A stretch of DNA of 64,000 nt, from the NCBI GenBank assembly GCA_019636285.1, contig JAHBXV010000018.1, positions 1 through 64,000 of the forward strand, read 5' to 3'. Under the pieces are notes generated by a model, which was given only the letters and a program-made list of their open reading frames with translations, was not told the origin of the DNA and searched no databases. Positions 5,763 to 62,501 of the stretch are shown here, piece after piece. The stretch comes from Planctomycetaceae bacterium. GTDB lineage: Bacteria; Planctomycetota; Planctomycetia; Planctomycetales; Planctomycetaceae. Positions within the stretch are counted from its first letter, which is position 1. The number at the start of each line of letters is the position of its first letter. Both the position numbers and the translations under genes were made by a program.

Positions 5763-7103
5763 ATGAACTGCCCCCGGATTGCCAATTATCCTCTGGCCGC
5801 ACTCTGGCTCGGAAGTCTGCTGGCTGGCCAGTTGGCGAGCGCGGCCGACTGGACCCGATTTCAGGATCTGAAGGCCACGGCCGCCGGCGTCGCGCTCCCC
5901 ACGACCGACTGGTCGCCGACGGAGAACCAGTTGTGGTCGACTGAAATTCACGGCTACGGTCAATCGAGCCCGGTCACCTGGCACGGCCGGGTCTTCGTGA
6001 CCTCGATTTCCGGCCCCAACAAAGAACACTGCCACATTTCCTCCTACGATCTGAAAAATGGCGAGAAGCAGTGGCAGGTCGATGTCGACTCGGCCACGCA
6101 AGCCGAGAACACGAACTACATCAGCCGTGGCGCGCCAACACCGGTTGTCGACGCCGAAGGGCTGTACTGCTTCTTCGAGGGAGGAAATCTCCTCTCGCTG
6201 ACACACGACGGAAAGCCCCGCTGGGAGCGGAATCTGGTCGAAGAGTTCGGCAAGATCGGCGCGCGACATGGCCTGTCGGCTTCACTCGAGCAAAACGATG
6301 ACCAGTTGTTTGTCTGGGTCGAGCGGGAAAGCGATCCCTATGTTCTGAGCGTCGACAAGGCCACGGGCAAGGACGTCTGGAAAGTTCCCGGCGTGGGAGC
6401 CACCAGTTGGGCCAGCCCGCGACTGCTGCCTGTCGACGGCGGCCAGCACCTGATCCTGAGCGCGGTCGGCAGTATTACAGGTCTCGATCCCGCGACTGGC
6501 CAAACGCTGTGGAAGCTGGAAGGAATTTCTGGAAACTCGTCCCCCACACCCGTGCCCGCTGGCCCCAATCGCTTCCTGATTGGTGCCACGGTCGGCCGTG
6601 GTGAATCCGACAACGGGAAAGCCGCTGATTCGAATGGCCTCGCTCGCGTTCAAAAGAACGACGATGGAACCTACCAGGCCGAATATGTATGGCGTGCCAA
6701 GCGGGCGACGTCGTCGTTTGGCTCGCCGATGGCCTACCAGGGAATGGCCTACTTCGTGAACGCGACGGGCGTGCTGTACGGACTCGACCTCGAAACTGGC
6801 GAAGAACGTTTTTCACAACGGCTCGCCGACAGTATGTGGGCGACGCCCATTCCCGTTGGCGACCGAATCCTGTTCTGCGGCAAGGGCGGGACGGTTTCAG
6901 TCATCGCCTCCGGGCCCGAGTTCTCGAAAATCGCCGAGAATGCCACCTGGCCGGTCGAAGCCACCGAAGCGCCGGCAGAGCCGCAGGGAAGGGGGCGGGG
7001 TGGATTCGGCGGCCCCGTTCTTTATGCGGGGGCCTTGGCCGACAATCGGTTGCTTTTCCGTCGCGGCGACCGGCTGTATTGCGTCGGCCAGGCCGGCGAG
7101 TGA
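5763..7103 (+). CDS. exported PQQ-like beta-propeller repeat protein
   Basis: An N-terminal signal peptide ends near residue 27 (LASAADW). The body consists of repeats of the PQQ-like propeller type, each ending in a variant of LDxxTGxxxW (YDLKNGEKQW, VDKATGKDVW, LDPATGQTLW, LDLETGEERF). It lacks obvious dehydrogenase cysteines, so it is more likely a BamB/YncE-like or planctomycete-specific propeller than a quinoprotein enzyme. Start ATG follows CAGGAACCAGC. It is the first gene downstream of the Fur-like dyad, but 221 bp separate it from the ApbE gene, so common transcription is possible rather than shown. Confidence 0.9.
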   Translation: MNCPRIANYPLAALWLGSLLAGQLASAADWTRFQDLKATAAGVALPTTDWSPTENQLWSTEIHGYGQSSPVTWHGRVFVTSISGPNKEHCHISSYDLKNGEKQWQVDVDSATQAENTNYISRGAPTPVVDAEGLYCFFEGGNLLSLTHDGKPRWERNLVEEFGKIGARHGLSASLEQNDDQLFVWVERESDPYVLSVDKATGKDVWKVPGVGATSWASPRLLPVDGGQHLILSAVGSITGLDPATGQTLWKLEGISGNSSPTPVPAGPNRFLIGATVGRGESDNGKAADSNGLARVQKNDDGTYQAEYVWRAKRATSSFGSPMAYQGMAYFVNATGVLYGLDLETGEERFSQRLADSMWATPIPVGDRILFCGKGGTVSVIASGPEFSKIAENATWPVEATEAPAEPQGRGRGGFGGPVLYAGALADNRLLFRRGDRLYCVGQAGE

Positions 7104-13608: not shown

Positions 13609-16035
13609 ATGTCGCCAGTGACACTGTCCTCGTCCACCGCCGTCGACTCATGCCGGCCGCTGCTGCTGGCCACCTGGCTGGTGCTGGGCCTGGCGATTGT
13701 CCCGGCCTGGAGTCAGGGACAAAAGCCTCCGGATGTCGGTTACGTCTTTCCACCCGTCCTCCAGATTGGCGAAACAACGAACGTGCAACTGGGTGGCTAC
13801 GACTTGACTGACGATCTCGACTGGTTTGTCCACGATGAGCACGTCCGCCTCGACGTTCTGGGGCCGCCCGGCGACTACCTGTTGACTCCGCCCCCCTACT
13901 GGACAGGCCCACGAGCCAGCACGACCGCGCTACCGATTCCCCGTGAAGTTCCCGGCCGCATCACGGTGCACCCCACGGCTCGTCCCGGACTGGTCCGGTG
14001 GCAGGTGGCCAACGCCAATGGAACGTCCTCAGTCGGCACCGTCTTGCTCAGTCGTGACACGGAGGTTCTTGAATCACGCTCTCGCGACATTCCCCAGCCT
14101 CTTCCCACGCCGCCGATCGCCGTTTCCGGGCGACTGAGCCGCTTGACTGAAGTCGACCGCTACGAATTGACCGCCACGCGCGAGGGTCCAGTTACCGTCG
14201 AACTCTTGGCCCGACGACTGGGGTCCGGTTTTCAGGGAGCCATGGAAGTCCATGACCGCGCGGGACGATTGATCGCCGACTTCGCCGACACCCAGGGTCT
14301 CGATGGTTCTGTCACGTTTCCCGCACAACAGGGAGAGCGCTACGTGATTTCCCTCCACGATGTCGACTTTCGGGGCGACCGGTCGTTTGTCTATCGTCTG
14401 AAGGTGACGGAAGGCCCCCGTTTCGTGACGGCGATCCCCTTCGGCGGAAAGTTGGGGACGGAACAGGAAGTCGAGTTCGTTGGCTATGGACTCGCGACGG
14501 GAAGGGCGGTCCTCGAATCGATTCGCCAAGCCGTTCGCTTTCCCTATGAGGCGGACTCCGATGGGTATGCAATCACACTGAACACACCGCTGGGCCCTGT
14601 CGAAGTCTCTGTTCCGTTGAGCGACTGCGAAGAGATGTCCGCCGCCGCTCTCGGGTCGGAACCATTGCGACCTCCGATGGCTGTCACCAGTCGATTTGAC
14701 CCCACGCGCACCGACGAGCGGTACACATGGATCTCCGGCGAAGGCGAGTCGTGGTTGATCTCCGCGCGGTCGCGAGGCATCGGGGGATCGTCCGACGTTC
14801 AACTGACAGTCCTCGATCCGTCCGGAAAAACTCTTCTGCAAGATGATGACCAGCCCGGCACGCTCGACGCCCAAATCGAATTCCTGGCGACTTCGGCTGG
14901 CACCTACACCGCCGTCGTGCGAAGCCTCTCGCCCAGACGCACCCAGCTCGACGAAGTCCACCGATTGGAAATTCGACGACGAACGGCCGACTTCTCGCTG
15001 GACATGCCTCAAGCAATCAACGTCCCCCTTGGCAAATCGGCGACCGGAACGGTGAAGGTCCGCCGCCACGGGAAATGGCAGGGGCCAATTGTTCTATCAA
15101 TCGACGGACTTCCTCGCGGTGTTCGCGTCGCCGGGGATTTGACAATCCCCGAGGGCAAAAATGAACTGGTGCTGGCATTTGAAGCCGCTCCCGATGCCGA
15201 TGTTGTCGGTACGACCATTCATCTTGTCGGGCGAGGCACGATCAACGGTGTGGAGCAGGTTCGCGAAGCCCTCGCCCCTGTCGGCGGTGCCGCACTCCCA
15301 ACGACCGACGACGAGCGTTGGATGACGCCGGTTCTGCTGAACGTCACGATGGCCCCGCCGTTCGCGATCAAAGTCGTCGATCGCGAACGGCAGCGTGAGG
15401 TCCACCGAGGGACAACCTATCTGGCCCCCCTGGAGATCGTCCGGAACGACGGCTTCACCGGTCCCCTGCAAATTGCCATGTCGGCTCGGCAGGCACGGGA
15501 TCGACAGGGAATTCGTGGCCCGCTCCTTCCCGTCGGAGATACCGAGACACTGGTGTTATATCCCTGTTCGATGCCGGAGTGGCTGGGGACCGACCTGACG
15601 CGGCGGATGAATGTTCATGGGGTCGGTGCGGTCCCCGATCCGCGCGGCCGATTACGCTGGCTGACCAGCGCGGCCGATGCCCGGATCACCATGATTATGG
15701 AGGGGGCCCTCTTGAAGCTGGCCTGCCTGGCCGAGGAGACAGTCGCACGCCCCGGCGACACCGTTCGCATCCCGGTTTCAGTCTCCCGCTCCATCAAGCT
15801 CCCCCTCGAAACTCAAGTGGAACTGCTGGTTCCGGATGAACTGACCGGACTGATCGACGCGGCCGCGATTACGCTCCCGATGGGGACCGACTCCGGAACG
15901 CTTATCGTCACGACACAACCGGACGCCCGGCTCGCTGGCCCCTGGACATTCGAACTCCGGGCGACCGCGCTGGAACATGGAAAATGGCCGGTCACATCGT
16001 TTGCAACCGCGAAAATCGAATTTGTCGCCAACTGA
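13609..16035 (+). CDS. large exported protein with pre-peptidase C-terminal (PPC)-like domains
   Basis: The N-terminal hydrophobic stretch (LLLATWLVLGLAIVPAWSQ) is a signal peptide. The segments EVDRYELTATREGPVTVELLARR (about 180) and DERYTWISGEGESWLISARS (about 370) followed by LTVLDPSGKTLLQDDD match the PPC beta-sandwich pattern. Further beta-rich domains follow and no peptidase motif is present. Planctomycetes often carry such proteins directly after DUF1549/DUF1553 and DUF1501 genes, as here, suggesting a functional trio outside the cytoplasmic membrane. Start ATG at 13609 has no strong ribosome site (a poly-A AAAAA just upstream). Confidence 0.88.
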   Translation: MSPVTLSSSTAVDSCRPLLLATWLVLGLAIVPAWSQGQKPPDVGYVFPPVLQIGETTNVQLGGYDLTDDLDWFVHDEHVRLDVLGPPGDYLLTPPPYWTGPRASTTALPIPREVPGRITVHPTARPGLVRWQVANANGTSSVGTVLLSRDTEVLESRSRDIPQPLPTPPIAVSGRLSRLTEVDRYELTATREGPVTVELLARRLGSGFQGAMEVHDRAGRLIADFADTQGLDGSVTFPAQQGERYVISLHDVDFRGDRSFVYRLKVTEGPRFVTAIPFGGKLGTEQEVEFVGYGLATGRAVLESIRQAVRFPYEADSDGYAITLNTPLGPVEVSVPLSDCEEMSAAALGSEPLRPPMAVTSRFDPTRTDERYTWISGEGESWLISARSRGIGGSSDVQLTVLDPSGKTLLQDDDQPGTLDAQIEFLATSAGTYTAVVRSLSPRRTQLDEVHRLEIRRRTADFSLDMPQAINVPLGKSATGTVKVRRHGKWQGPIVLSIDGLPRGVRVAGDLTIPEGKNELVLAFEAAPDADVVGTTIHLVGRGTINGVEQVREALAPVGGAALPTTDDERWMTPVLLNVTMAPPFAIKVVDRERQREVHRGTTYLAPLEIVRNDGFTGPLQIAMSARQARDRQGIRGPLLPVGDTETLVLYPCSMPEWLGTDLTRRMNVHGVGAVPDPRGRLRWLTSAADARITMIMEGALLKLACLAEETVARPGDTVRIPVSVSRSIKLPLETQVELLVPDELTGLIDAAAITLPMGTDSGTLIVTTQPDARLAGPWTFELRATALEHGKWPVTSFATAKIEFVAN

Positions 16036-24956: not shown

Positions 24957-25131
24957 CGATTTCCACGTCTTGAGTTCACTCGCTGGTCAGCCCCTTGTGG
25001 ATCAACGAGACAAAAAGAGCGACCGTCAGGACCGGGTGAGCGTGACCGAGCACTTCATACGTCTCGATTCGGCACGTCATTCAGACAGTTTTGACGCCAA
25101 CACACAATATTCTCTCTGAAGGACAGCGATC

Positions 25132-27456
25132 ATGCGGCGTTTAACGTGGCACTCTCTTCTGGTCGCGGCTCTGACGACGTCGATGGCTGGTGGTCCCGCC
25201 TGGGCACGTGGGTTCGGTGGCGGCGGCTTCGGGGGCGGAGGGTTTCATGGAGGCGGTGGATTTGGTGGTGGCGGTGGACTCGGCGGCGGGGGGGGATTTC
25301 ATGGTGGCGGTGGTTTTGGAGGAGGGGGCTTCGGAGCCGGTGGCCTTGGGGGCGGGGGTGGCTTCGGGGGCGGAGGGCTGGGTGGCGGTGAAGGAATGAG
25401 ACTCCCCTCGGGAGGAGGTCTCTCCGGCGGCGGATTCCGACCGTCTGGTCCCTCGTTCTCAGGGGGTGGCGACTTTTCCCGCGCCGGCGGCGGTTTGCAG
25501 GGACTCGGCGGCGGTGGACTTGGTGGTGGCGGTGGACTTGGTGGCGGCCTGGGCGGTGGAGGATTAGGAGGCGGCGGCTTCGATCGAAGTGGAATTGGTG
25601 GGTTCGATCGCTCGGACCTGTTCCATTCCCCGAACTTCGGCGGTGGAGGAGCGGGGGGCTTTGGTCTTGGCGATCGTCCGCAATTGAATCCCGGCGGCGG
25701 CATCAATCGTCCCGATCTGAGTGATGGCAATCGCAATGGGTTCCGCCCCGATGGGACAAACGCCGATCGCCCGTCGCTGCCAAACGCCGATGGGCTTCGG
25801 TCAGGCAATCTATCGGGTATGACCGATCGATTTCCCAACAGCGGCGGAGCGACGCTGCCAGGATTGGGTCCGTTCCAACCCGGTGCAGGGGGTGCTGGCA
25901 CGCAGCGGCCGGGAGTCCGTCCTGGCGAAGGTGGGGCTGGCGAACGTCTGCCGGGCCTCGGTCCAAACGCCGATGGCGGCAATCGCAATCCGGCCAACTT
26001 CCCCGGCGCGGATGGTTCGGGAGAACGCTGGTCACCGGCGGATCGCGGATCAATCCCCGAACGCCACGACGATCTTTCCAATCGATTCGACGATTTGCAG
26101 AACCACTGGAACGATCAGGACTGGCATCACAACCAGTGGACGGGACCAAACGGAGGAGAGATCAATCACTTCGGGTACTGGGGACCAAACGGCTATTGGG
26201 GTCACACGGGCGCCTGGGGACCGAACGGCGGGTATGCCGGTCATTCTGGACACGTCGGCCCCAACGGGGCCTGGGGGCACAGTAGCGTCGTCGGTCCCAA
26301 TGGCGGGTACTGGGGACATACCGGTGCCGTGGGGCCGAATGGCGCCTGGGGACATGCGGGCTACTACGGTCCGGCCGGGCATTGGTCGCGAAGCTGGGGC
26401 TGGTATAACGGATATTGTCCGACGTGGGGACATGGAAGCTGGAACTATTTGTGGAACGCGTACCCCGTCGCCATGGCCTTCGGCATGACAACCTGGGGCA
26501 TCAACTGTGTTGCCTGGGACATGGGAATCAGTTCCTACTACAACCCCTATTACTCAACTCCCGTGATGGTCGATGGCCAGCCGGTTGCCACGTACGATCA
26601 ACCCCTCGTCGGCGGTGGTGAGGACACATCGCAACCGGCCGATACCCAAGGCGACTCGACTTCGGATTCTTCGTCTGATCCACTGGTCGCAGCCGTCGAC
26701 TCGGCACGGCAGGCATTCTACGACGGCAGCTACGATCAGGCCCTTCAATTGATTAACGGCGCCCTGAAGCTGGCTCCGCGCGACGCGGCCGTGAATGAAT
26801 TCCGCAGCTTGTGCCTGTTCGCGCTCGGCCGGTATCAGGATTCGGCGGCAACGATTCACGCGGTGCTGGCAGCTGGTCCAGGCTGGGACTGGACGACCAT
26901 GATCAGCCTGTACGGCGACGCGGATGCTTATTCCCAGCAATTGCGTCAGCTCGAGGACGCCGTCCGGTCCAATCCCGATGTCGCGGCAAACCACTTTCTC
27001 CTCGGCTATCACTACCTGACGGGCAATCATAAAGACGCGGCCGTCAAGCAGTGGCAAGACGCCTCGCGCCTGGCATCCAACGACCAGCTTTCGGCCGAGC
27101 TTGTCAAAATGTATTCCCCGCAGGATCAGGGTACGCAACCGGCGACGGCACAGACGCCAGCGCCCAATCTCGACCAGCCCGCCTATCCCATGGACAAACT
27201 CTACGGTGACTGGTCCGCGAATGGCGATTCCGGCCAGTTCGCGCTCACCCTCGGCAACGATGACAAGTTCACCTGGAAATTCACGCGAAATGGTCAGCCA
27301 CAGTCGGTGACGGGCGTGTATATCGTTCGCGGCAACAACCTGGTCTTGCAACCCGACTCGGGCGGGACAATCGCCGCGACCATCACGCTCTCCGGAAACC
27401 AGTTGAAATTCGTGCCCGTGGGCGACGTCAAGACACTGACATTCACCCGAGGCTAA
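25132..27456 (+). CDS. glycine-rich, GPNG-repeat, TPR exported protein
   Basis: A signal peptide ends near ARG (residue 25). About residues 25-165 are extremely glycine-rich (GFGGGGFGGGGF type). A Pro/Asn/Gly-rich linker follows, then six GPNG-headed repeats of 12-13 residues rich in Trp, His and Tyr (positions 26143-26379), and a Tyr/Trp-rich hydrophobic segment. The second half has TPR-like helices (AFYDGSYDQALQLINGALKLAPRDAAVNEFRSLCLFALGRY) and a final beta-rich domain (LYGDWSANGDSGQFALTLGN). The glycine-rich part suggests a surface or matrix protein. AAGGA before the ATG supports the start. The Pro-rich antisense frame is a shadow of the glycine repeats. Confidence 0.88.
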   Translation: MRRLTWHSLLVAALTTSMAGGPAWARGFGGGGFGGGGFHGGGGFGGGGGLGGGGGFHGGGGFGGGGFGAGGLGGGGGFGGGGLGGGEGMRLPSGGGLSGGGFRPSGPSFSGGGDFSRAGGGLQGLGGGGLGGGGGLGGGLGGGGLGGGGFDRSGIGGFDRSDLFHSPNFGGGGAGGFGLGDRPQLNPGGGINRPDLSDGNRNGFRPDGTNADRPSLPNADGLRSGNLSGMTDRFPNSGGATLPGLGPFQPGAGGAGTQRPGVRPGEGGAGERLPGLGPNADGGNRNPANFPGADGSGERWSPADRGSIPERHDDLSNRFDDLQNHWNDQDWHHNQWTGPNGGEINHFGYWGPNGYWGHTGAWGPNGGYAGHSGHVGPNGAWGHSSVVGPNGGYWGHTGAVGPNGAWGHAGYYGPAGHWSRSWGWYNGYCPTWGHGSWNYLWNAYPVAMAFGMTTWGINCVAWDMGISSYYNPYYSTPVMVDGQPVATYDQPLVGGGEDTSQPADTQGDSTSDSSSDPLVAAVDSARQAFYDGSYDQALQLINGALKLAPRDAAVNEFRSLCLFALGRYQDSAATIHAVLAAGPGWDWTTMISLYGDADAYSQQLRQLEDAVRSNPDVAANHFLLGYHYLTGNHKDAAVKQWQDASRLASNDQLSAELVKMYSPQDQGTQPATAQTPAPNLDQPAYPMDKLYGDWSANGDSGQFALTLGNDDKFTWKFTRNGQPQSVTGVYIVRGNNLVLQPDSGGTIAATITLSGNQLKFVPVGDVKTLTFTRG
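26143..26379 (+). repeat. in-gene GPNG repeat array
   Basis: Six degenerate copies of a 36-39-bp unit, each coding GPNG(or GPAG)-x-WGHxG, inside the glycine-rich protein gene. The units differ at many synonymous sites, so the array is old and kept at protein level. Confidence 0.75.
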
Positions 27457-33209: not shown

Positions 33210-33803
33210 ATGACGACAAATCCACCGCTGAAGATCGCGCTGGCTCACGGCATGGCCGATGCCCGCGAGGCCATTCACGCAGCCCTGGTTCTCTCGCGGT
33301 ACGAAGATATCTGGATGTGCCGGACGGGGGCCGAACTCATCGCCACCTCGCTCGAGCACGAACCCGATCTCATCATTACGGGCGTTGACCTGCCCGACAT
33401 GGATGGCCCCAGCGCCCTCATCGAAATCAGCCAGACCCTGACGATTCCCGCGATCGTCGTGACTTGGCAGCGATCGCTGGAACTGGTGCAGCGGTCGCTC
33501 GAAGATCATGTCATGGCCTACCTGCTGGAACCGGTCAAGCCCGAGGAAATTGTTCCGACAATTTTCCTCGTGATCCGCCGCTTCGAGCAGCTCAAGGAGC
33601 TCGAAGCCGAAAATCAGTCGCTGAAGCAGGCCCTGTCCGACCGCAAAGTGATCGAGCGCGCCAAGGGGTTCCTGATGAAGCAGCACGGGCTCGATGAGGA
33701 AGCCGCTTACAAGCAACTCAGGCGTCAGGCAACGGATAACCGCATTCGAATGGTCGAGGCGGCCCAACAGGTGTTGTCGGACGACCAACCACCCGACGAG
33801 TGA
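33210..33803 (+). CDS. ANTAR-domain RNA-binding regulator with degenerate (pseudo) receiver
   Basis: Residues 7-120 have a receiver fold and 138-192 an ANTAR domain (ALSDRKVIERAKGFLMKQHGLDEEAAYKQLRRQATDNR), which in AmiR, NasR and EutV binds RNA hairpins to prevent termination. The receiver lacks its active site. The acidic pair is Ala12-His13, the phospho-Asp position is Gly58 (PDLIITGVDLPDMDG), and the conserved Lys is Glu107 (LLEPVKPEE); only Thr85 remains. It should therefore not be controlled by phosphorylation, like AmiR. A long coiled linker (RFEQLKELEAENQSLKQ) precedes ANTAR. Divergent from the large hybrid kinase, 281 bp apart. Confidence 0.92.
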   Translation: MTTNPPLKIALAHGMADAREAIHAALVLSRYEDIWMCRTGAELIATSLEHEPDLIITGVDLPDMDGPSALIEISQTLTIPAIVVTWQRSLELVQRSLEDHVMAYLLEPVKPEEIVPTIFLVIRRFEQLKELEAENQSLKQALSDRKVIERAKGFLMKQHGLDEEAAYKQLRRQATDNRIRMVEAAQQVLSDDQPPDE

Positions 33804-34256: not shown

Positions 34257-35162
34257 TCATCCAGTCATCGAAGCATCGCAAACAATTGGAATTCGCCGGG
34301 CTTCGACTCGAACTTCAAAGGGGCCTTCCGTGACGACATCCCCATCAATGGTCACGGGCATCGGCTGGCGAGCCTTCACGCTGACGTGACGGACTTGCCG
34401 ATGAAGGACCAGTGGATGCTCCAGAAAGTCATGGAAAACATAGTCTCTGGCCAGCGCCATCATGTCCGTCGGAGATCCGTCGAGAATGGCTACCACGTCG
34501 ACCAATCCGTCATCGATCCGAGAACTGGGAGCGACCGAGAGCCCTCCACCCGAGGTTCGGCCATTGGCGATGAACAAATTGAAAATCGACAAGTCTTGAA
34601 GTTCATCATCCAGCTTGAGCCGCGCCTCGAAGGTCTCGAGATTGCCAATCATGTCGACCACGCCCCGTAGATAGCTATAAGGGCCCCACTTTTCCTTCGT
34701 TTCCGCTGTCAGGGCTTCCAGATACCGTCCCGTATTTCCACCGGTGCACATATTCGCGATCACATGCCGTCCCGTTTCGCATTCCATGTGGACCAGGTCC
34801 AGGCGACTGGCTTCTCCTCCCAGGACAGCCTCGACGGCCTGCTCGGGTTCGAGCGGCATTCCGAGCGTTCTTGCCAGATCGTTGCCGGTCCCCAGAGGCA
34901 GGACGGCGAGACTCACGTTCGGGTTATCGAGGCTCGCTAACGCTTCCAGGACAACATTCACCGTGCCGTCTCCCCCCGCCGCCACGACGCGCCGACACCC
35001 ACAGGCCACGCCGTCTCGAATCGCGCTCTTCGCCGAGGCCGGCGAGTTCGATTCAACAAGTCGCACGCCATCCTTGCTGATGAGTTCGTCTCGCAACGAT
35101 CCCGTCTTTTTGCATCCGCTGGCCGAAGGATTCCAGATCACCAGGGTGAACCCGCTCATCAT
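34257..35162 (-). CDS. diacylglycerol/lipid kinase family protein (YegS-like)
   Basis: The DAGK catalytic domain shows LVIWNPSASG (phosphate loop), VVAAGGDGTVNVV (the signature GGDGT) and AVLPLGTGNDLARTLG, followed by the beta-sandwich C-terminal half with IDDGLVDVVAI and TIDGDVV. Such enzymes phosphorylate diacylglycerol or related lipids from the cytoplasmic face; about 300 residues is the normal bacterial length. Two adjacent ATG codons (35162 and 35159) begin the protein with AGGG just upstream; an upstream TTG is less likely. Its placement in a stress-signalling island is consistent with membrane maintenance, which is inference. Confidence 0.93.
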   Translation of the reverse strand: MMSGFTLVIWNPSASGCKKTGSLRDELISKDGVRLVESNSPASAKSAIRDGVACGCRRVVAAGGDGTVNVVLEALASLDNPNVSLAVLPLGTGNDLARTLGMPLEPEQAVEAVLGGEASRLDLVHMECETGRHVIANMCTGGNTGRYLEALTAETKEKWGPYSYLRGVVDMIGNLETFEARLKLDDELQDLSIFNLFIANGRTSGGGLSVAPSSRIDDGLVDVVAILDGSPTDMMALARDYVFHDFLEHPLVLHRQVRHVSVKARQPMPVTIDGDVVTEGPFEVRVEARRIPIVCDASMTG

Positions 35163-35504
35163 CAACCCTCGCAAGGAATCGAACAACGGGCAACAACCGC
35201 GCGGCTGTTTGCGAACGTCGTCTCATTCAGAGAGAACCATCTCGCGAATCGAGTACCGGTTCTCCGAATTCTTCGTAAGTCGTGGACACGATGGTGATTT
35301 AGCCATTTGGCGGTTCTCGGATTAGCCACCGCGATTCTCTTTTGCAAGGGCCGCCTGCCCAATCGCCGCCCTCGCTGAGCGTCCATCGACCATGATTCCA
35401 CCCGGTCCGTCTGGACGATCGGGTTCGTTCGACAGACTGAACCAACGTGGAACCTGATTGGCGTGACACAAGTTACGCAAACGGCAGCCTACCGGACTTG
35501 AGAA

Positions 35505-35520
35505 TGGCACGGTCCTTGCA
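35505..35520 (+). promoter_or_regulatory. sigma-54 (-24/-12) promoter, perfect consensus
   Basis: TGGCACGGTCCTTGCA equals the RpoN consensus TGGCACG-N4-TTGCA with exactly 10 bp between GG and GC. Start expected near 35531. No protein gene follows on this strand; the tandem hairpins do. Confidence 0.85.
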
Positions 35521-35530
35521 AGACAGAGAC

Positions 35531-35680
35531 TGCCAGAGATGGTTATGCCAGGGTGTTGCTTGATGCGGCGACATCCTGGCAGTTTGTGCGGCCAATTGGC
35601 GAATCGGACAGGCCAAGGTTGTCCTGTTCGATTCGAGTATCGGAGGGCGATTGTGTGCTCGCGAAACGCGGACACATTCG
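35531..35680 (+). ncRNA. candidate sigma-54-dependent structured RNA
   Basis: Starting about 15 nt after the predicted start, hairpin 1 (35546-35559 with 35568-35581) has 14 consecutive pairs around an 8-nt loop. Hairpin 2 (35600-35612 with 35623-35635) has 13 pairs around a 10-nt loop. A weaker third (35655-35675) has a CGCG-AAA-CGCG core. The three imperfect positions in hairpins 1 and 2 are all G.U pairs in the + strand RNA and would be A.C mismatches in the opposite RNA, which supports the + strand as the folded product. The 3' end is not defined: no T-run follows, so the end given is approximate. An ATG at 35539 opens a frame that runs into the antisense of the kinase gene; it is not protein-like. 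Confidence 0.55.
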
Positions 35681-35888
35681 TCACGGCACCGCACCGGTCC
35701 AGATGGGGAAGGGGGGGTGACCCAGAAATGGTTCTCACCACGCCCGTCTTCGTCCCGACCGGTGCGGCCGGAGAGGATCTAAGGCCTCGCGCGTTCGTAC
35801 CGTCGCCACGCGAAAAGTCGTGTAAATTCCCGAGTCACACATACGCCATGGTCAACCAGCCTGTTTCGCCACAGCGAAGCACGGAGAA

Positions 35889-38771
35889 TCACGCTTCGGC
35901 TGCCGCCGCGGAGGCATCGGGCGGCAAACTCAGCATCTGCCGAAGTTCGACATCCAACGCGTCGAGTCGAGAACGAAGTTCCGCGATGAGGTCGAGACGT
36001 TCTGCCCGAGCGGAAGCCGCCGCTTCGAGTTGAGATGCCAATTCCACGACCGGAGCCGCGCCAAAGTTCGCGGCCAACCCTTTGATCGAATGGGCGGCAC
36101 GCGCGGCGAGATCCCCAATCCGTTGGTTCTCGAGCGTCGTCATCATTTCAGGAGTGTCTTCGAGAAAGAATCGGGCCATGTCGTGCAAAAGACTGACATC
36201 GCCCCCCATCCGCGCGAGCGAACCCGGAAGATCTATCATAGTCCCCATAGCCTCGCTGGAATAAGTTGCCTCGCCATTCTCGCTACTGGCTGGTTCTTCC
36301 GTACCGTCCGCAGCCCCTGACATCAAGTCCCGAGGAAGATCGGGCGATTTCCCCAACCGTTCCACTTCGCGAATCAACTGGTGAGCGTCCAGCGGCTTGG
36401 CAATGTATCCGTTCATGCCGGCCGCGAGACACAATTCCCGATCCCCCCGCATCGCATGCGCCGTCATGGCGACGATGGGGATGCTCGCCTTTCGTGGTTC
36501 GGCTAGGCCGCGAATCAGTTCCGTTGCCTGTCGACCATCCATGACGGGCATTTGAACATCCATCAGGACGAGATCGAAGTCCTCGTTTTCGAGTCGGGAA
36601 ACAGCTTCACGTCCGTTCGAAACCAGCGTCACGTCATGGCCCCTTTTCCGCAGAATCGCGTCCACGACCTTTTGATTCGCCGGGGCATCTTCCGCGATCA
36701 GGATACGAAGCGCATGATAGGTTGGCTTTAGCTTACCGGACAGCGAAGGCGTGACGGCCGGATCCTCGATCACCTCCATGAGCGTATTCAGCAGGTCCGA
36801 CTGCGAGACGGGCTTGTTCAGAAAACCGGCGATCGGCAAGCCTCGCAACTTTGGATCGAGGGCGTGCCTGTCGGCGGCGGACGCCATCAGAATCGCGGCA
36901 CCATGCAGCAATCCCTCCCGGGTCGCCACATTGACGAACTCCATGCCATCCATGGATGGCATCAGCGCGTCGATGAGTATGACGTCAAACTGCCGGTCGT
37001 CGTTCCTGGCCGCCCGCATCGCGCGCAGCGCTTCCCGACCATCTCCGACAATCGTCGCGCTCATCGACCAGTTCCTGAGCATTTCGCCTAGAACGCCGCG
37101 ATTCGTGGAACTGTCATCGATGATGAGCACCTCCAGCCCTCTTAAAGCCCCGTTCGAGGAGCGGGACGCGAACGTGGAGCCCCTGCCGTTCGCCGCCAGT
37201 GGCATGACCATCCTCACATGGAAAGTCGTCCCTTCGCCAAGTCGACTTTCGAGTTCGAGACGGCCGTTCATCCGCCGGATCAGTTGCTGGACAATCGAAA
37301 GTCCCAGCCCGGTCCCTCCGTGTGCCCTTGTCGCTGTCGAATCGACCTGCGTGAACGGTTCAAAGATGCGTTTCTGATCTTCCAGCCCAATGCCGATCCC
37401 CGTGTCTTTCACCGAAAGGTGCAACGAGACCTCTTCAAGATTGGCGGCTCTTCCGGCCGCGCTGTCCTTCGACACTTCAAGAACAACCTCTCCGGCGTCG
37501 GTGAACTTGATCGCATTTCCCGCGAGATTCAGAACGATCTGTCGCAACCGGTCCTGATCGCCGACGACAAGATCCGGAACATCGCGATCGATCGACCAGA
37601 CCAGTTCCAGTCCTTTCTCGGCCGCGCGAAGCGACAGGATCTTCGCCGCCTGGTCAATCGTGCCGCGGAGGCTGAAGGGTTCGTGATCGAGTTCGATGTG
37701 ACCAGCCTCGATCCGTGAAAAGTCGAGCAGATCATTCAGCAGATAGAGCAGCGTCCGGGCCGATTCGACCGTCGTCTCCAGGTATTCCCGGACGGGTTTC
37801 GGCAACTCTTCGTCCAATGCCAACTCTGTCATCCCCAGGATCGCGTTCATCGGCGTTCGCAGTTCATGGCTGACATTGGCCAGGAACTCTCCCCGCGCTC
37901 GATTGGACCGCTCCGCTGCCTCCTTGGCTCGCAGAAGTTCCACTTTCGCCTGACGCTGGGCTGTCAGATCCATCACGAAGCAGACGAACTGTCCGGGAGT
38001 CGGCATCGTCGTTCCGCCGACCCACACGGGAACAACTGCTCCGGCGCTCGTCATGAACTCCTTTTCGGTAGCCTCGAATCGGCCCCGCTCATCCAGGTCC
38101 GCGATCAATCGCCTGTCCACGTCCCCGTACGACTCGGGAGTCATGTTTCGCCAGTCAAGACGTCCCGCCTCCAGATCTTCCCTGGAGTATCCCAGCATCG
38201 AGAGCAGCGCGGCGTTTGCTTCCAGAATGGGTCCGTGGAACTCGCAGATCATCGCTCCGACAACATTGGCATCGACCAACCGCTGGAAGGTTCGATCGCG
38301 AGCCGCAATTTCGGCACGCGCCCGCTCCACGTCGTGCAGCCGTTCGATAGCCGTCTGCTGAGCGGACCGCGCGGCAATTTCCCGGAGTGCGGCCAACGAC
38401 CGGCTCCGATGGAGTCGTTCGGCCAGAGCCGAGACGAAACAACCCTCGATCAGGAACACGACCACTTGCAGCATCTGCTGGCTTCCCTCGATCGCCAGTT
38501 TGAATCGGGGTTCGAGGAAAAACCAATTCATGATCGCGATGGCCATCAGCGTCGCGACAAGCCCCGGCTTAAGACCTCCGTACCAGGCACTCAGCATGAT
38601 GGCGCTGGAAAACAAGAGAAACGGCGTTTCCTGCTGGCTGACGAATGGATCCAGGATCAGCTTGAACAACAGTGCCGCCAGTACCGCGGCCACCCCGACG
38701 CCATATCCCCAGGTCCGGCTAGAGACGGGTAGAATCGACCAGCTACGGAATCTCTGGTACGGGGACTTCAT
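35889..38771 (-). CDS. hybrid sensor histidine kinase: DUF4118, PAS, HisKA, HATPase, REC, REC, HPt
   Basis: Residues 22-120 form a KdpD-like DUF4118 membrane domain. PAS spans ~160-275, and HisKA has His302 in FLANVSHELRTPMNAIL. HATPase_c spans 400-525 (N box LAGNAIKFTDAG, GTGLGLSI). Receiver 1 has Asp601 (ILIDALMPSMDG), receiver 2 Asp738 (LMDVQMPVMDG), and the HPt domain His894 (AAHSIKGLAANFG). All phosphotransfer residues are intact, so it can run a complete internal relay and hand phosphate to a free receiver. Candidate targets nearby are the sigma-54 regulator (receiver Asp77) and the single-domain receiver at 44.7-45.2 kb; the pairing is inference. Confidence 0.95.
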   Translation of the reverse strand: MKSPYQRFRSWSILPVSSRTWGYGVGVAAVLAALLFKLILDPFVSQQETPFLLFSSAIMLSAWYGGLKPGLVATLMAIAIMNWFFLEPRFKLAIEGSQQMLQVVVFLIEGCFVSALAERLHRSRSLAALREIAARSAQQTAIERLHDVERARAEIAARDRTFQRLVDANVVGAMICEFHGPILEANAALLSMLGYSREDLEAGRLDWRNMTPESYGDVDRRLIADLDERGRFEATEKEFMTSAGAVVPVWVGGTTMPTPGQFVCFVMDLTAQRQAKVELLRAKEAAERSNRARGEFLANVSHELRTPMNAILGMTELALDEELPKPVREYLETTVESARTLLYLLNDLLDFSRIEAGHIELDHEPFSLRGTIDQAAKILSLRAAEKGLELVWSIDRDVPDLVVGDQDRLRQIVLNLAGNAIKFTDAGEVVLEVSKDSAAGRAANLEEVSLHLSVKDTGIGIGLEDQKRIFEPFTQVDSTATRAHGGTGLGLSIVQQLIRRMNGRLELESRLGEGTTFHVRMVMPLAANGRGSTFASRSSNGALRGLEVLIIDDSSTNRGVLGEMLRNWSMSATIVGDGREALRAMRAARNDDRQFDVILIDALMPSMDGMEFVNVATREGLLHGAAILMASAADRHALDPKLRGLPIAGFLNKPVSQSDLLNTLMEVIEDPAVTPSLSGKLKPTYHALRILIAEDAPANQKVVDAILRKRGHDVTLVSNGREAVSRLENEDFDLVLMDVQMPVMDGRQATELIRGLAEPRKASIPIVAMTAHAMRGDRELCLAAGMNGYIAKPLDAHQLIREVERLGKSPDLPRDLMSGAADGTEEPASSENGEATYSSEAMGTMIDLPGSLARMGGDVSLLHDMARFFLEDTPEMMTTLENQRIGDLAARAAHSIKGLAANFGAAPVVELASQLEAAASARAERLDLIAELRSRLDALDVELRQMLSLPPDASAAAAEA

Positions 38772-39544: not shown

Positions 39545-39712
39545 TCAGGGAACCGGACGCGGAGCCCGCGCGATCATCGAAATCAAGAAGAGAACCAGGA
39601 ACACGAAGAATAGAACCTTCGCGATTCCCACGGCTGTTCCCGCAAGCCCCCCGAAGCCCAGGACGCCTGCGATCAAAGCGATCAGCAGAAAGGTCAAAGC
39701 CCACGACAACAT
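39545..39712 (-). CDS. DUF1328 family small membrane protein
   Basis: A 55-residue protein, [20 protein letters not shown] followed by [19 protein letters not shown], the characteristic two-helix DUF1328 (YtjA-type) sequence almost residue for residue. It is an inner-membrane protein of unknown function, commonly seen among general stress genes. The ATG is preceded by AAGGAGA at 8 nt, an excellent ribosome site. It sits 179 bp after DUF3309 on the same strand and may be carried by the same transcript. Confidence 0.93.
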
Positions 39713-39891: not shown

Positions 39892-40041
39892 TTAAAACAG
39901 GATCACCAGCAGCAGCAGGATGAGTAGCACGCTTCCAACGCCGCCGGCCGGTGAATATCCCCAATCTCGCGAGTAAGGCCATGCCGGCAGAGATCCGACC
40001 AGGAGCATGATCAACAGAATGAAGAACAGCAGTTCAATCAT
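39892..40041 (-). CDS. DUF3309 family small membrane protein
   Basis: A 49-residue protein from the ATG at 40041 (MIELLFFILLIMLLVGSLPAW), then PYSRDWGYSPAGGVGSVLLILLLLVILF. This is the DUF3309 pattern: helix, LPxWPYSRxWGYxPxGG, helix. An upstream in-frame start at 40077 would add an unrelated hydrophilic stretch. Function unknown; the family is widespread in bacteria exposed to envelope or osmotic stress. A near-perfect sigma-54 promoter lies 65-80 bp upstream, and the gene for a sigma-54 activator follows immediately beyond it, so direct control is likely. Confidence 0.92.
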   Translation of the reverse strand: MIELLFFILLIMLLVGSLPAWPYSRDWGYSPAGGVGSVLLILLLLVILF

Positions 40042-40077: not shown

Positions 40078-40112
40078 GGTTGCGTCAATTGAACGCTGCC
40101 TTTAACGCAACC
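40078..40112. promoter_or_regulatory. 8-bp inverted repeat overlapping a sigma-54 promoter
   Basis: GGTTGCGT (40078-40085) and ACGCAACC (40105-40112) are exact inverted copies. The second overlaps the -12 element of the DUF3309 promoter and the expected start (near 40095) lies between them. It may be a repressor operator or a 5' stem. Confidence 0.45.
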
Positions 40113-40121
40113 ACCGTGCCA
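40106..40121 (-). promoter_or_regulatory. sigma-54 promoter of the DUF3309 gene
   Basis: On the minus strand TGGCACG, GTGG, TTGCG: consensus at every conserved base with 10 bp between GG and GC. Start expected near 40095, about 55 nt before the DUF3309 ATG. Confidence 0.85.
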
Positions 40122-40287: not shown

Positions 40288-41820
40288 TCAGTCGATATGG
40301 ACTTCTTTGTCCACAATGATTCCGAATGCAGCGATCCGGTCGCGAACTTTGCCCCGAGTAATTCCCAAGAGATCGGCGGCCCGGCTCTGGTTTCCCTGGG
40401 TCTCCTGGAGCACTCGCGTGAACAGGAAGCGCTCCATCATTTCCAGACACTCGGCATACAAGTCTGTCGTACCATGCTCGATCCGTTGAGCGACAAACCT
40501 GGCCAGCTCGCTGTCCGGAAGTCCTGTCTCCGCGCTCGGCGCCGCGACTGGTGAATCGGGCATGCCCAATCCCCCGGATCGAACTTCCTCCGGCAGAAAA
40601 TCCGGGACGATCACCGTTCCGGAAGTGTGCAGAATCGCATAGCGGACAACGCTTTGCAGTTCGCGAATATTGCCCGGCCAGCGATAGCGCTGCAGCAGCT
40701 CGAGGGCGTCGGGAGAGATCCCTTCCAGATCAGGCCGGTTCAGGATTTTGGCGAATCGCGAGACATAGTGTTCCAAGAGCAGCGAGATGTCCGATTCGCG
40801 TTCGCGCAGCGGGGGCAGGCGAATGGTCACGTTATTCAGACGATAGAGCAGATCCTCGCGAAACTCTCCCGCCTCGACCATCTGTTCCAGATTGCGGTTC
40901 GTCGCCGCCACCAGCCGCACATCGGTCGAAAGGGTCGCGTTGCCCCCCACGCGCTCGAATCGCTGATCCTGCAAGAGCCGCAGCACCTTGCCCTGGACCA
41001 GCAGCGACATATCCCCCACTTCGTCAAGAAACAACGTGCCGCCGTTGCATTGCTCGAACTTGCCGATCCGACGCTGATCCGCTCCCGTGAACGCCCCTTT
41101 CTCGTGACCAAACAGCTCGCTTTCCAGCAGGTTGTCCGGAATCGCGGCGCAATTGATCGCCATGAAGCACTGACTGGCCCGTCGACTGTGCTGATACACG
41201 GCCCGGGCAACCAGTTCCTTCCCCGTCCCGCTTTCCCCCCGAATCAGGACGGTGACATCCTGACCAGCAACGCGACCAATGGATTTGAAAACGTCCAGCA
41301 TTGCCGAACTGCCGCCGACGAACGGATCGCCACCAGCCTGGTGATCTCCGCGAATGGGAACCGCCACCGGTATGTTCATCAGTCGGCGCGTATCTAACGC
41401 GCGTAGGACGACTTCCTTCAACTCCGCGAGATCGAGAGGCTTACGCAGATAGTCGAATGCCCCCAACTGAATCGCGTTGATCGCGGTCTCGCTCTCGGAG
41501 TCGGCCGTGATGAAAACGACGGGAAGTCGACGATCCCGCGTCTGAATGTCGCGAAACAATTCCAGGCCCGAGGCGTCGGGCAGGCGAATATCCAGGAGGA
41601 CCACGTCGGGGCGATCCCGTTCCACGGATTCCAGCCCCGCGCGACCATCCTTCGCCGCGATCACTTCGACTTCGGAGCCCTCGAACACCTTGCCGACAAG
41701 GTGGTGCAGGCTGCGGTCATCATCAATGGCCAGAACTTTGTCAGCCAAGTTTTCGCTTTCCGGTGTGGCGGCTTGAAGGCCCGAAGCCCGTCGCAAATCA
41801 TCGTCGGTCCAGCCTACCAT
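40288..41820 (-). CDS. sigma-54-dependent response regulator (NtrC type)
   Basis: An N-terminal receiver (residues 27-145) has the acid pair Asp33/Asp34, phospho-Asp77 (LLDIRLPDASG) and Lys in LRKPLD. The AAA+ domain has Walker A GESGTGKE (195-202), the sigma-54 contact loop GAFTGA (242-247), Walker B GTLFLDEV (261-268) and the arginine-finger region. The C-terminal Fis-type helix-turn-helix (QGNQSRAADLLGITRGKV) binds enhancers. All activities look intact. AAGG lies 7 nt before the ATG. Four sigma-54 promoters lie within 8.4 kb around it, making this the natural activator; the enhancer sites were not identified. Confidence 0.96.
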   Translation of the reverse strand: MVGWTDDDLRRASGLQAATPESENLADKVLAIDDDRSLHHLVGKVFEGSEVEVIAAKDGRAGLESVERDRPDVVLLDIRLPDASGLELFRDIQTRDRRLPVVFITADSESETAINAIQLGAFDYLRKPLDLAELKEVVLRALDTRRLMNIPVAVPIRGDHQAGGDPFVGGSSAMLDVFKSIGRVAGQDVTVLIRGESGTGKELVARAVYQHSRRASQCFMAINCAAIPDNLLESELFGHEKGAFTGADQRRIGKFEQCNGGTLFLDEVGDMSLLVQGKVLRLLQDQRFERVGGNATLSTDVRLVAATNRNLEQMVEAGEFREDLLYRLNNVTIRLPPLRERESDISLLLEHYVSRFAKILNRPDLEGISPDALELLQRYRWPGNIRELQSVVRYAILHTSGTVIVPDFLPEEVRSGGLGMPDSPVAAPSAETGLPDSELARFVAQRIEHGTTDLYAECLEMMERFLFTRVLQETQGNQSRAADLLGITRGKVRDRIAAFGIIVDKEVHID

Positions 41821-42068: not shown

Positions 42069-42887
42069 CTATTTCCGAACCGTGGTCGTCCCTTCGATTC
42101 GCTCGCGAACCGAAGGCAGATTCAATTCGGGGTAGTCTGGTGGGGTGACCTGGGGGGCGCGTTCAAGCTGTTCACGCGTCAAGTCCGTCGAGACCACGTA
42201 TTGACTTGTGTTTTCGGCATTTCGGCTCACCGTCAGCGACTTGTACGGAACCACGACGAAGGTTTTACCCACGCCGACCACTCCGCCATGGCCGATCACC
42301 GCGTACGGCGTCTTCTTCGCGGCCACGTCAAAAATCACGGCATCCAGGACACCGACCGATTCGCTGTCCACTCCGAGCACCGAGGCATCCGTGATACTGC
42401 GGATGCAGACAAGCTCATCCTTTTCCGAAACCGCCTTCGGCTGGCTGACACGGAAAAATTCCGCATTCTTCGTCAACCAGTCCTGATCTCGCAGTTCCGC
42501 GCGTTCCTGGGCTTTCAACTTCGCGGCTCGATTCATCTGATCTGTCGTCATGGCCACGGAAAGGCGGAGTTCGTGATCCTTCGCGGGAAGCTGAATTTTC
42601 ATCGCTTCGAAGGGAATTACGATTTCCGATTCGCCAACACCGGCGACCCCGCCAATTCCCGCGATCACGAACAGCGTTTTCCCGCTCTTGTCCACGATGA
42701 TCGTGTTCACGTCCGCGATGGCTTCGTTGCTCGCGTCGTGGATCGTCGCTCCCAGAAGCTTGTTCGACTCGATCAGTTCTTGCTTTTGATTCGTTCCCGC
42801 GGCTTCCCGAGGCTTGTCGTCCGCCCCGAACGCGGCCACCGTCATAGCCAGTGTTGCCAGCGCCGCGCCAATCACGTTCGATGTCAT
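42069..42887 (-). CDS. exported protein with two PRC-barrel domains
   Basis: A signal peptide (IGAALATLAMTVAAFGADD) is followed by two PRC-barrel-like domains, residues ~40-110 (SNKLLGATIHDASNEAIADVNTIIVDKSGK) and ~160-235 (DASVLGVDSESVGVLDAVIFDVAAKKTPYAVIGHGG). Both carry the repeated GVxGVGxxxVVVPY/IPFE strand. Exported PRC-barrel proteins of this form are associated with stress response in many bacteria; ligands are unknown. ATG 42887 has GGGGAGA 7 nt upstream and is preferred to 42902. A sigma-54 promoter lies about 65-90 bp upstream and a strong terminator downstream, so it is a single-gene unit. Confidence 0.92.
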   Translation of the reverse strand: MTSNVIGAALATLAMTVAAFGADDKPREAAGTNQKQELIESNKLLGATIHDASNEAIADVNTIIVDKSGKTLFVIAGIGGVAGVGESEIVIPFEAMKIQLPAKDHELRLSVAMTTDQMNRAAKLKAQERAELRDQDWLTKNAEFFRVSQPKAVSEKDELVCIRSITDASVLGVDSESVGVLDAVIFDVAAKKTPYAVIGHGGVVGVGKTFVVVPYKSLTVSRNAENTSQYVVSTDLTREQLERAPQVTPPDYPELNLPSVRERIEGTTTVRK

Positions 42888-43284
42888 CTCTATTCTCCCC
42901 ATTTCCAGGACTCATCTTGGGAAGGCATATCCCCTATGCCACACGCCTGACATTTCCTGACAGGCAATTGTGGTGCCATTCGCCTGTTTGAATCCGCGCC
43001 AGACACGTCCCGCGTCTGACATGACGACGGGATGCGTCCTCCACGGCCGGAAACTGCGGAAATTCGCTCGAAATTCAGCCGTTCAATTCCCGGTCAGCGA
43101 TCCGGACCAATCGCATTAATGCCTGCTCACGTGATTGCGCGTCACCAGGCCGAACGCCGCAAGGGGCTCCTCTGCGATTCGCATTCGACCACAGTGTTCG
43201 ACGCGCGACCACGTGGAAGCAGCCGGAGCAACAAAAACGCCCCCGAATATGGCGGCGTCGCGTGAGAGACCGTGCCCGATGCAT
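42888..43284. other. intergenic region with sigma-54 promoter
   Basis: About 400 bases between the PRC-barrel and four-helix-bundle genes. It contains the sigma-54 promoter at 42963-42978; no gene-like frame is seen in the remainder. Confidence 0.65.
42963..42978 (-). promoter_or_regulatory. sigma-54 promoter of the PRC-barrel gene
   Basis: On the minus strand TGGCACCACAATTGCC: TGGCAC, 5 bp, TTGC, with 10 bp between GG and GC. Start expected near 42952, 65 nt before the ATG. Confidence 0.8.
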
Positions 43285-43755
43285 TTACGACTTGCGCGCG
43301 TCTCGCATGTCGCGCACCCGGTCATGCGCCATTTTGACGGCCGTGTACTGCCGCAACACGAGCGGATGCACGGCAGTCCCCGCCGTTTGATCCACGGCTT
43401 CCAGATAAGCCTGCTTGATTTGATCCTCGCCGTACTCGGCTTCCTTCAGAATGGCGTACGGATCGTTCCCCGACAGGAATTCGCGGCACTTCAGCCAGGC
43501 CCGATGCAAGGCCGCCAAATAAGAACCATCCGTGACCGGTTCCTCCCCGCTCCATTGCACATACTCCGACAACTCGCGGGCCTGCTGTTCACGCTCGACG
43601 GCGAGTTGGTTGCAGACCTCCGAGACATATCCATCGCCCAGCGCGTCCGAGACTTCTTCAAACCCCTTGGCGCTGTCGATGTTCAGCCGCGCGAGCTGCT
43701 TCAAGACGTCAACCGTCTTATCACTCAGATTCATGGTGTTTGGCGAAGTAGCCAT
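43285..43755 (-). CDS. PA2169/DUF2383-type four-helix-bundle protein
   Basis: A 156-residue all-helical protein. MNLSDKTVDVLKQLARLNIDSAKGFEEVSDALGD is the usual start of PA2169-family (DUF2383) ferritin-like bundles, with Glu/Asp/His-bearing later helices (LAALHRAWLKCREFL, ILKEAEYGEDQIKQAYLEAV). Family members are stress-associated cytoplasmic proteins; metal binding is suspected from the fold but not established. GGAGG seven bases before the ATG is a strong ribosome site. A sigma-54 promoter lies 85-100 bp upstream. Confidence 0.9.
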   Translation of the reverse strand: MATSPNTMNLSDKTVDVLKQLARLNIDSAKGFEEVSDALGDGYVSEVCNQLAVEREQQARELSEYVQWSGEEPVTDGSYLAALHRAWLKCREFLSGNDPYAILKEAEYGEDQIKQAYLEAVDQTAGTAVHPLVLRQYTAVKMAHDRVRDMRDARKS

Positions 43756-44220
43756 AATTATGCCTCCATTCCGGCTTCAGGCCGGTTGAATTGTCCATCG
43801 CGGCGAGTCACCGTGACTGCCGACCCACCTCGATGGTGTTGCAGTCCGCGTGCCAGTTCGATTTTTTCGCGACAAACTTCGCCTCGCCATTCGTCGCAAC
43901 TCGCGTCTCACAAAGTTTCTTCCAAAAACTCCGTAACGCGTGAATCGATACCTAGGCGCGACTCAAACAACGCGCGGCGAGCTGCCGGGCGGGCCGCCCC
44001 CGTGGCACAACTCCGTGCGGGTCGCCCGGAGTGACGGGCGTCGCGTGGCGGACGAGATGCGTTCCAACATCCGCGCCGTCTCCGGACGGTCTTACGCCGC
44101 CAGGAAAGGTCCGGGCAATGGCCGCCCCAGCCGGACACGGCAATTCCGTTCCGAGCGAACGGTACCGCGAGTCGTGGGGTTCGATGCGCGAGAGTCGCGC
44201 CTCTTGAGTCGGGCCGGGAG
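43756..44220. other. intergenic region with sigma-54 promoter
   Basis: About 465 bases. The left part carries the sigma-54 promoter of the four-helix-bundle gene. The rest is GC-rich with open frames in several phases but no ribosome sites or recognisable protein. Confidence 0.6.
43840..43855 (-). promoter_or_regulatory. sigma-54 promoter of the four-helix-bundle gene
   Basis: On the minus strand TGGCACGCGGACTGCA: perfect -24 (TGGCACG), 10 bp between GG and GC, -12 CTGCA with one deviation from TTGCA. Start expected near 43829, about 75 nt before the ATG. Confidence 0.75.
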
Positions 44221-62015: not shown

Positions 62016-62501
62016 TCAGCGGGAAGTCGCGCCCCCTTGCTGCGGTCCCGCGCTCCGTGACGGCGCCAAACCCAAACGATAACGCCTGGCGGTCTCACTG
62101 CGATAGCCCGTCAGGCCGCGCGGACGTCCCACTCCACGGTATCTGGCCCGACACTGGTAACAGGTGGCGACAGGTTCACGCAGGGCCAGCGGCACGATCA
62201 GCAAGACTGGCACGACACCAAGCGCGATCCACCAGCCCGAAGCTCCCAGAATTGCGGCAATCGCCCCCACGCCCCCCGCCGCCACTCCACCAAGCAGCCA
62301 GCTCTTCCATCCCGACCGAAGGTCTCGCCACAGATCGGGACATCCACACACCAGACATCGCGACAGAACACCGTCACCGCAATCGAGCGGTTCCACATCG
62401 CGAGTCCATCCGCACACGCGACATCCGACGAGAGAGGCGCTCTTCGCGATCGTGACCTCTTCCGGCCGCAGGCATTCCGGACAATCAAACCGTACGTGCA
62501 T
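62016..62501 (-). CDS. zinc-ribbon membrane protein, hypothetical
   Basis: Residues 7-54 hold paired cysteines of zinc-ribbon type (CPEC, CRVC, CGDGVLSRCLVCGC). A hydrophobic region (LLGGVAAGGVGAIAAILGASGWWIALGVVPVLLIVPLAL) suggests two membrane helices. A further CYQC lies at about residue 113, followed by an Arg-rich tail. Cysteine pairs on both sides of the membrane part imply metal binding on the cytoplasmic side. No family is recognised. An AGGCGAACGGA precedes the ATG at 62501. It is in the same direction as the FAD oxidase gene, about 160 bp upstream of it. Confidence 0.72.
   Translation of the reverse strand: MHVRFDCPECLRPEEVTIAKSASLVGCRVCGWTRDVEPLDCGDGVLSRCLVCGCPDLWRDLRSGWKSWLLGGVAAGGVGAIAAILGASGWWIALGVVPVLLIVPLALREPVATCYQCRARYRGVGRPRGLTGYRSETARRYRLGLAPSRSAGPQQGGATSR

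Follow-up and report, generated by a model that had tools for sequence, protein, structure and literature searches.

The stretch of DNA analyzed here, to which we refer throughout as the window, comprises 64,000 nucleotides of a Planctomycetaceae genome (assembly GCA_019636285.1, contig JAHBXV010000018.1, positions 1 to 64,000). A lipid kinase gene and a hybrid sensor kinase gene, both read on the minus strand, flank a gap in which a sigma-54 promoter on the plus strand leads into a series of predicted hairpins; beyond the sensor kinase lies a cluster of genes for small membrane proteins, a PRC-barrel protein, and a DUF2383 protein, arranged around a gene for an NtrC-type response regulator (Table 1). 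An RNA made from this promoter would run towards the sensor kinase gene and meet it at its 3' end, a convergent arrangement that the earlier note on this DNA had described correctly.

Table 1. Genes, promoters, activator sites, and hairpins of the locus, in window coordinates
Feature	Position	Strand	Remarks
REC-ANTAR response regulator	33210-33803	+	Sole ANTAR match found in the genome; 1.7 kb from the RNA
YegS-like lipid kinase (DAGK_cat), upstream neighbor of the RNA	34257-35186	-	Pfam; lacks a good sigma-54 site here
Predicted activator site, TGAGCGTCCATCGACCA	35376-35392		Center 121 nt upstream of the -24 element; score 9.01
Sigma-54 promoter	35505-35520	+	Full consensus; putative transcription start near 35531
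Leader hairpin	35532-35543	+	Predicted fold; small, 4 pairs
Hairpin 1	35546-35581	+	Predicted fold; 15 unbroken pairs including 3 G.U, loop UGAUGC
Hairpin 2	35600-35635	+	Predicted fold; 13 pairs (1 G.U), then 2 inner pairs past a mismatch
Hairpin 3	35646-35682	+	Predicted fold; interrupted, 14 pairs, smaller
Hairpin 4	35689-35767	+	Predicted fold; ~80 nt, 11 unbroken outer pairs, then interrupted
Hybrid sensor kinase (DUF4118-PAS-HisKA-HATPase-REC-REC-Hpt)	35889-38771	-	The RNA points into its 3' end
DUF1328 small membrane protein	39545-39712	-	Lacks a good upstream sigma-54 site
DUF3309 small membrane protein	39892-40041	-	
Sigma-54 site ahead of the DUF3309 gene	40106-40121	-	Among the window's four best
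NtrC-type response regulator (REC, sigma-54 AAA+, HTH_8)	40288-41820	-	Presumed activator; domain matches
PRC-barrel protein	42069-42902	-	
Sigma-54 site ahead of the PRC-barrel gene	42963-42978	-	Among the window's four best
Predicted activator site	43195-43211		225 nt upstream of the PRC promoter; score 8.69
DUF2383 protein	43303-43755	-	
Sigma-54 site ahead of the DUF2383 gene	43840-43855	-	Among the window's four best

Sigma-54 promoters follow the consensus TGGCACG-N4-TTGCA, which is matched in full by TGGCACG-GTCC-TTGCA at 35505-35520 (+), including the -24/-12 requirement of GG-N10-GC in its consensus context. The site ranks first among sigma-54 matches in the window, bearing out the perfect promoter that had been claimed to stand ahead of the hairpins, and the genome yields one match for rpoN (E value of 5.2e-63). 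Genome-wide, the exact consensus occurs twice in 6.37 Mb and the reversed motif likewise twice, such that the perfect site, taken alone, is within chance expectation and too rare for enrichment to be assessed; the looser pattern TGGCAYN5TTGC is enriched, with 42 matches versus 15 for its reversed control.

Immediately downstream, the segment 35531-35775 (+) folds at -131.1 kcal/mol (z of -6.65; 0 of 200 shuffles as stable), and among 2,126 scanning windows covering both strands of the 64 kb, the 240-nt one that starts at 35521 (+) ranks first for GC-adjusted stability. Over 35505-35680 (+), the extent initially considered, z against shuffles is -3.82. The earlier note had described tandem hairpins of 14 and 13 pairs followed by a smaller third; the second and third stand as described, the first has 15 pairs, and hairpin 4, the longest of the set, lies beyond the coordinates given there and was missed, so that the combination of promoter and fold is real and larger than first described. 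(The longest stem in the scan of the window lies elsewhere, a 17-pair hairpin at 15355-15393 [-] inside the long ORF 13609-16035 [+].)

How rare such a fold is was gauged against a random sample of 5,200 windows taken from 22 related stretches; 19 of these windows match the stability of the one at 35521 and 2 that of the one at 35531; such folds therefore arise without this promoter and are rare, yet not unique. The eight most extreme of the 5,200 come from five stretches, and each, on folding, is dominated by a large palindrome. Large near-perfect palindromes occur in the cluster stretches of relatives L072 (~10805-10880), L076 (~2656-2732), and L080 (~6930-7033), and that of L072 adjoins a sigma-54-like site but lies upstream of it, the fold downstream being unremarkable (z of -0.17). 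Across the 42 sigma-54-like sites in stretches from the family, an extreme downstream fold is found once, at 35505 (z of -5.05, with the other 41 between -1.73 and 1.54), and likewise, when 29 of the 42 sigma-54-like sites in the genome itself were analyzed, the same site stood at -4.99 and the others between -1.84 and 1.48. That the best promoter leads straight into the top-ranked fold counts in favor of an RNA.

The four best sigma-54 matches in the window are the 35505 site and three on the minus strand (at 40121, 43855, and 42978); the latter lie 28 to 84 nt upstream of the ORF starts of the DUF3309, DUF2383, and PRC-barrel genes, around the gene for the NtrC-type activator. Relatives across the family were found for the NtrC-type regulator, the hybrid kinases, the DUF3309, DUF1328, PRC, and DUF2383 proteins, and the lipid kinase. 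Those of the regulator reach an E value of 1e-160 or better in 62 of 169 other family genomes, and in 26 of the 33 relatives passing the cutoffs for both genes (a count combined from two lists), a kinase lies within 10 kb of the regulator. The same genome carries a second NtrC-type paralogue (G000:C66:74-1501, 55% identical), and a relative of the REC-ANTAR regulator (71% identical) adjoins a CHASE3 kinase in L072.

To place the promoters in a family context, we assembled 23 stretches surrounding such regulators, totaling 398,595 bases (21 kb come from this window and 20 kb from the surroundings of the second paralogue of the same genome), and found 42 sigma-54-like sites at the cutoff versus 13 for the reversed motif. 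Of the 42, we count 15 that stand ahead of a CsbD-like, DUF1328, DUF2383, DUF3309, PRC-like, or lipid kinase gene, gene names beyond this window being assigned by eye or by tblastn rather than by Pfam. One such site, L091:8133 (+), belongs to a YegS-like lipid kinase in a related genus that has its own sigma-54 promoter with two strong activator sites and adjoins an NtrC-type gene, which suggests that lipid turnover belongs to the regulon.

A binding motif for the activator was sought in the 220 nt upstream of 23 promoters picked for having a plausible gene (3 from this window and 20 from relatives; two of the 23 lie slightly below the cutoff of 15), with all other sites excluded from training. 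The result is a palindromic 17-nt motif, approximately TGRTCGnTnAnCGAYCA, whose log-likelihood of 91.1 compares with 35.3 to 42.5 for six sets of random segments run with fewer restarts; 17 was the best of the six widths first tried, and widths of 19 and 21 later fit somewhat better (98.4 and 103.8). When retrained on the 20 foreign promoters alone, with this genome left out, the model places its 9.01 site at 35376-35392, and since four sites in the 64 kb reach that score, about 0.014 would be expected per 220 nt (under the first model, 0.014 in the window and 0.028 across all of its loci). Best sites of the 20 training promoters score 5.5 to 12.5 and lie at 60 to 191 nt; the score ahead of the RNA is second best of the 29 sigma-54-like sites analyzed among the 42 of its own genome, and the sister promoters of DUF3309 (4.75) and DUF2383 (3.21) score poorly. 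That it serves the lipid kinase instead is improbable, since the best minus-strand sigma-54 match in 35187-35500 has a score of 12.2, close to the median of 11.75 under the null. Family-wide (L071, L072, L074-L092, and the window at 38.7 to 44 kb), the motif recurs, often paired, ahead of genes that include CsbD-like, DUF1328, and PRC-like ones, and the literature consulted on Planctomycetes sigma-54 and on the regulon's proteins contains no description of a family-wide regulon with this motif. The shared best sigma-54 sites around the NtrC-type gene, together with the activator motif at the RNA promoter, support the co-regulation with envelope genes that had been proposed, and regulon context and activator site lend independent support to a co-regulated sigma-54 RNA.

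We consider that 35531 to ~35770 (+) probably encodes a structured RNA, driven by sigma-54 and an activator, that belongs to a local envelope-stress regulon, and we assign this explanation as a whole, RNA plus regulon membership, a probability of about 0.5. From the sequence, we infer both that the RNA is transcribed and that the NtrC-type regulator is its activator. Once phosphorylated, this regulator would bind at or near the predicted site upstream, the sigma-54 promoter would fire, and a structured RNA starting near 35531 would be produced as a member of the same regulon as DUF3309, PRC, DUF2383, and their neighbors. With no U-tract terminator found ahead of 35889, transcription would continue into the 3' end of the opposed sensor kinase gene, the hairpins forming the stable 5' part of the transcript, and overlap with the kinase transcript, or collision of RNA polymerases, would damp kinase expression; this damping would close a negative feedback loop onto the system responsible for inducing the RNA.

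Any regulatory role is itself presumptive, and this kinase feedback, taken on its own, is a guess that we hold only tentatively. The conserved neighborhood of kinase and regulator would make it meaningful; however, sigma-54 sites antisense to the kinase 3' end number 4 in 29 relatives versus 6 on the sense strand. We therefore rejected the idea that an antisense promoter is conserved at this position, and the feedback is without comparative support. Between 35500 and 35889, the plus strand has no terminator-like site, an absence that says little because the terminator scan as a whole returned fewer sites (8) than shuffled sequence (11.5); strong terminator-like sites within the cluster lie on the minus strand at 38847-38818 and 42028-41997.

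If the modes of action are ranked, again as a guess, kinase feedback comes first and a protein-binding decoy second. Under the latter, promoter, regulon, and identity of the RNA are the same, and only the action differs: the RNA would work in trans by titrating a protein, for instance an RNA-binding regulator, much as CrcZ and CsrB-type RNAs do. Several observations fit such a role. The predicted RNA is nearly fully paired, with four accessible stretches of 5 to 6 nt each, and a search for Hfq gave no match in the genome, the same search being positive in 5 of 14 control genomes; with no Hfq, no terminator found, and accessible stretches this short, a small RNA that acts by seed pairing is not the first choice. 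By an approximate method with guessed start positions, pairing with the start regions of 20 window genes showed no excess for regulon genes and stood out in two, the gene at 5763 (0 of 200 shuffles) and an SDR gene (P = 0.03).

The encoded ANTAR protein, as the sole such RNA-binding regulator found in the genome, makes an ANTAR target attractive and would offer the decoy a partner close at hand. No pair of hexaloop hairpins with A1 and G4 and a linker of 2 to 25 nt was found in 35521-35800, however, and on this loop motif we rejected the identification as an ANTAR target, which leaves the ANTAR regulator unsupported as a partner. The loops of the four hairpins, compared by eye, also share no sequence. 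Any protein partner is putative, and we regard the decoy as possible but doubtful.

The flanking genes are both read on the minus strand, on which no terminator-like site was found in 35187-35889; the hairpins might instead lie in a minus-strand transcript that joins the kinase and lipid kinase genes and, as a spacer element, govern its processing or stability, with the sigma-54 match incidental. The minus-strand fold indeed also beats its shuffles (z of -5.0). Against this, the plus-strand fold is better by 26.6 kcal/mol, the top-ranked promoter and top-ranked fold coincide, and a predicted activator site lies 121 nt upstream of that promoter; we consider a minus-strand element unlikely. The strand preference itself calls for caution. 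Every non-Watson-Crick pair counted in the plus-strand helices is G.U, including those of stems 1 and 2, as the earlier note had stated (although the wobbles there are four in number, not three), and a strand-neutral, ungapped count over the stems gives 8 G.U versus 3 to 4 A.C, where the A.C pairs sit at edges or within internal loops. That note had offered this asymmetry as independent evidence of strand, a claim that is not supported: 25 of 1,062 windows (77 of 1,062 after correction for GC skew) show an energy difference of at least 26.6 kcal/mol favoring one strand or the other, and the difference is mostly a matter of GC skew, so that we rejected asymmetry as proof and take it to favor the plus strand weakly. 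At 25081-25501 and 62041-62461, the two strands differ in folding energy by as much as 64.6 kcal/mol, which points to strongly skewed composition there.

The promoter could instead drive a short unrecognized protein or what is left of a stress gene since lost, the fold being a by-product; promoters of the same kind in relatives do precede CsbD-like, DUF1328, PRC-like, and lipid kinase genes (names assigned partly by eye), and the ORF 35539-36033 (+) is open. Of the two ORFs of at least 80 amino acids that overlap the hairpins, however, this one has a codon-usage score of -0.187 and the other -0.148, versus +0.10 and +0.11 for the flanking genes; scores across the hairpin stretch are those of noncoding frames, and neither ORF has a Pfam match at an E value of 0.001. 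The open frame, moreover, begins ~8 nt past the putative transcription start. We therefore regard a protein product as very unlikely: as the earlier note maintained, no gene follows the promoter, and the product of 35531 to ~35770 (+) is apparently noncoding.

Searches for related elements returned little. A DNA search found the element in 0 of 58 other genomes, and a covariance model built from the single sequence gave no believable homologue in 169 other family genomes, although its filters lose some weak matches; of its three weak matches, two (in G027 and G035) fall within genes, and the third, in G016, was assessed solely from its alignment, which is poor. A search of 56 related loci (840 kb) gave two matches, at chance level and thus no homologue, and scans of contigs from named genomes gave no close relative, in a collection that may omit near records. 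No Rfam family exceeded its gathering threshold anywhere in the 64-kb window (two microRNA models matched 35681-35774 below threshold). A dispersed palindromic repeat or mobile-element remnant behind a chance sigma-54 match, for which the large palindromes in relatives' cluster stretches might speak, is scarcely credible, given that the element is single copy (among the 30 matches listed at an E value of ≤10 in its own genome, from 30 candidates scored, only the element itself is genuine, and the next has an E value of 0.11 over 18 bases) and has no genuine match in plasmid or phage records; a REP- or MITE-type palindrome, which requires several genomic copies, was rejected on copy number. Among the genomes examined, then, the element is lineage specific. 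A bolder account, in which a recently born, lineage-specific RNA was captured by the sigma-54/NtrC-type envelope-stress system and feeds back, without Hfq, through the sensor kinase gene or the ANTAR regulator, strikes us as decidedly doubtful.

Sigma-54-dependent small RNAs as a kind are already known, Qrr and CrcZ among them. Qrr RNAs act by Hfq-assisted pairing with mRNAs and have a terminator at their end, whereas at this locus neither Hfq nor a terminator-like site was found and few bases are accessible. Transcription of CrcZ and CrcY depends on sigma-54 together with CbrB, so that they share with the RNA proposed here a sigma-54 promoter; CrcZ binds Hfq through repeated CA-rich motifs, unlike the nearly fully paired structure predicted here. 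The comparisons that follow draw on parts of the papers cited. The Qrr small RNAs of Vibrio are sigma-54 dependent and governed by the phosphorelay-controlled activators LuxO and SypG (PMC10162802), the same type of control proposed for this RNA, and they too take part in a feedback loop (PMC2680268); sequence comparison with Qrr consists of the Rfam search, which gave no match. In Pseudomonas, CrcZ and CrcY exemplify RNAs that titrate a protein (PMC4063720), the counterpart of the decoy considered above. ANTAR targets are defined by dual hairpins with A1/G4 hexaloops (PMC3369931, PMC8164766), and the tandem hairpins here, near an ANTAR regulator gene, are alike in arrangement but lack the hexaloop pair.

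The closest regulon described is a sigma-54 regulon of the Planctomycetia with NtrC/ZraR-type activators and stress genes (PMC12316311), which resembles this one in sigma factor, activator type, the presence of stress genes, and class; the portion of that text consulted names only protein genes, and the text does not contain the terms "sRNA," "small RNA," or "non-coding." Rhodopirellula-1 is a candidate structured RNA motif of Planctomycetes and Proteobacteria (PMC2864571), and because it bears no Rfam number in the table of that paper, the Rfam search may not cover it. Eight small RNAs, unnamed in the part of the source consulted, are annotated for the Planctomycetes-Verrucomicrobia-Chlamydiae group (PMC9029176). 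Literature on Planctomycetes sigma-54, on small RNAs, and on the regulon's proteins, judged mostly from listings, announces no sigma-54-driven RNA.

If transcribed, the RNA would be a regulatory RNA under sigma-54 and activator control in the Planctomycetota. On the bolder account above, it would give a stress phosphorelay a riboregulatory arm, within a phylum for which the literature search gave no sigma-54-driven RNA. If transcribed, it would also show how, within a single lineage and with no relatives elsewhere, an RNA was added to a regulon of protein genes through a promoter and an activator site. Together with its set of genes, the activator motif maps, in a form that can be tested, an envelope-stress system that has received little study.
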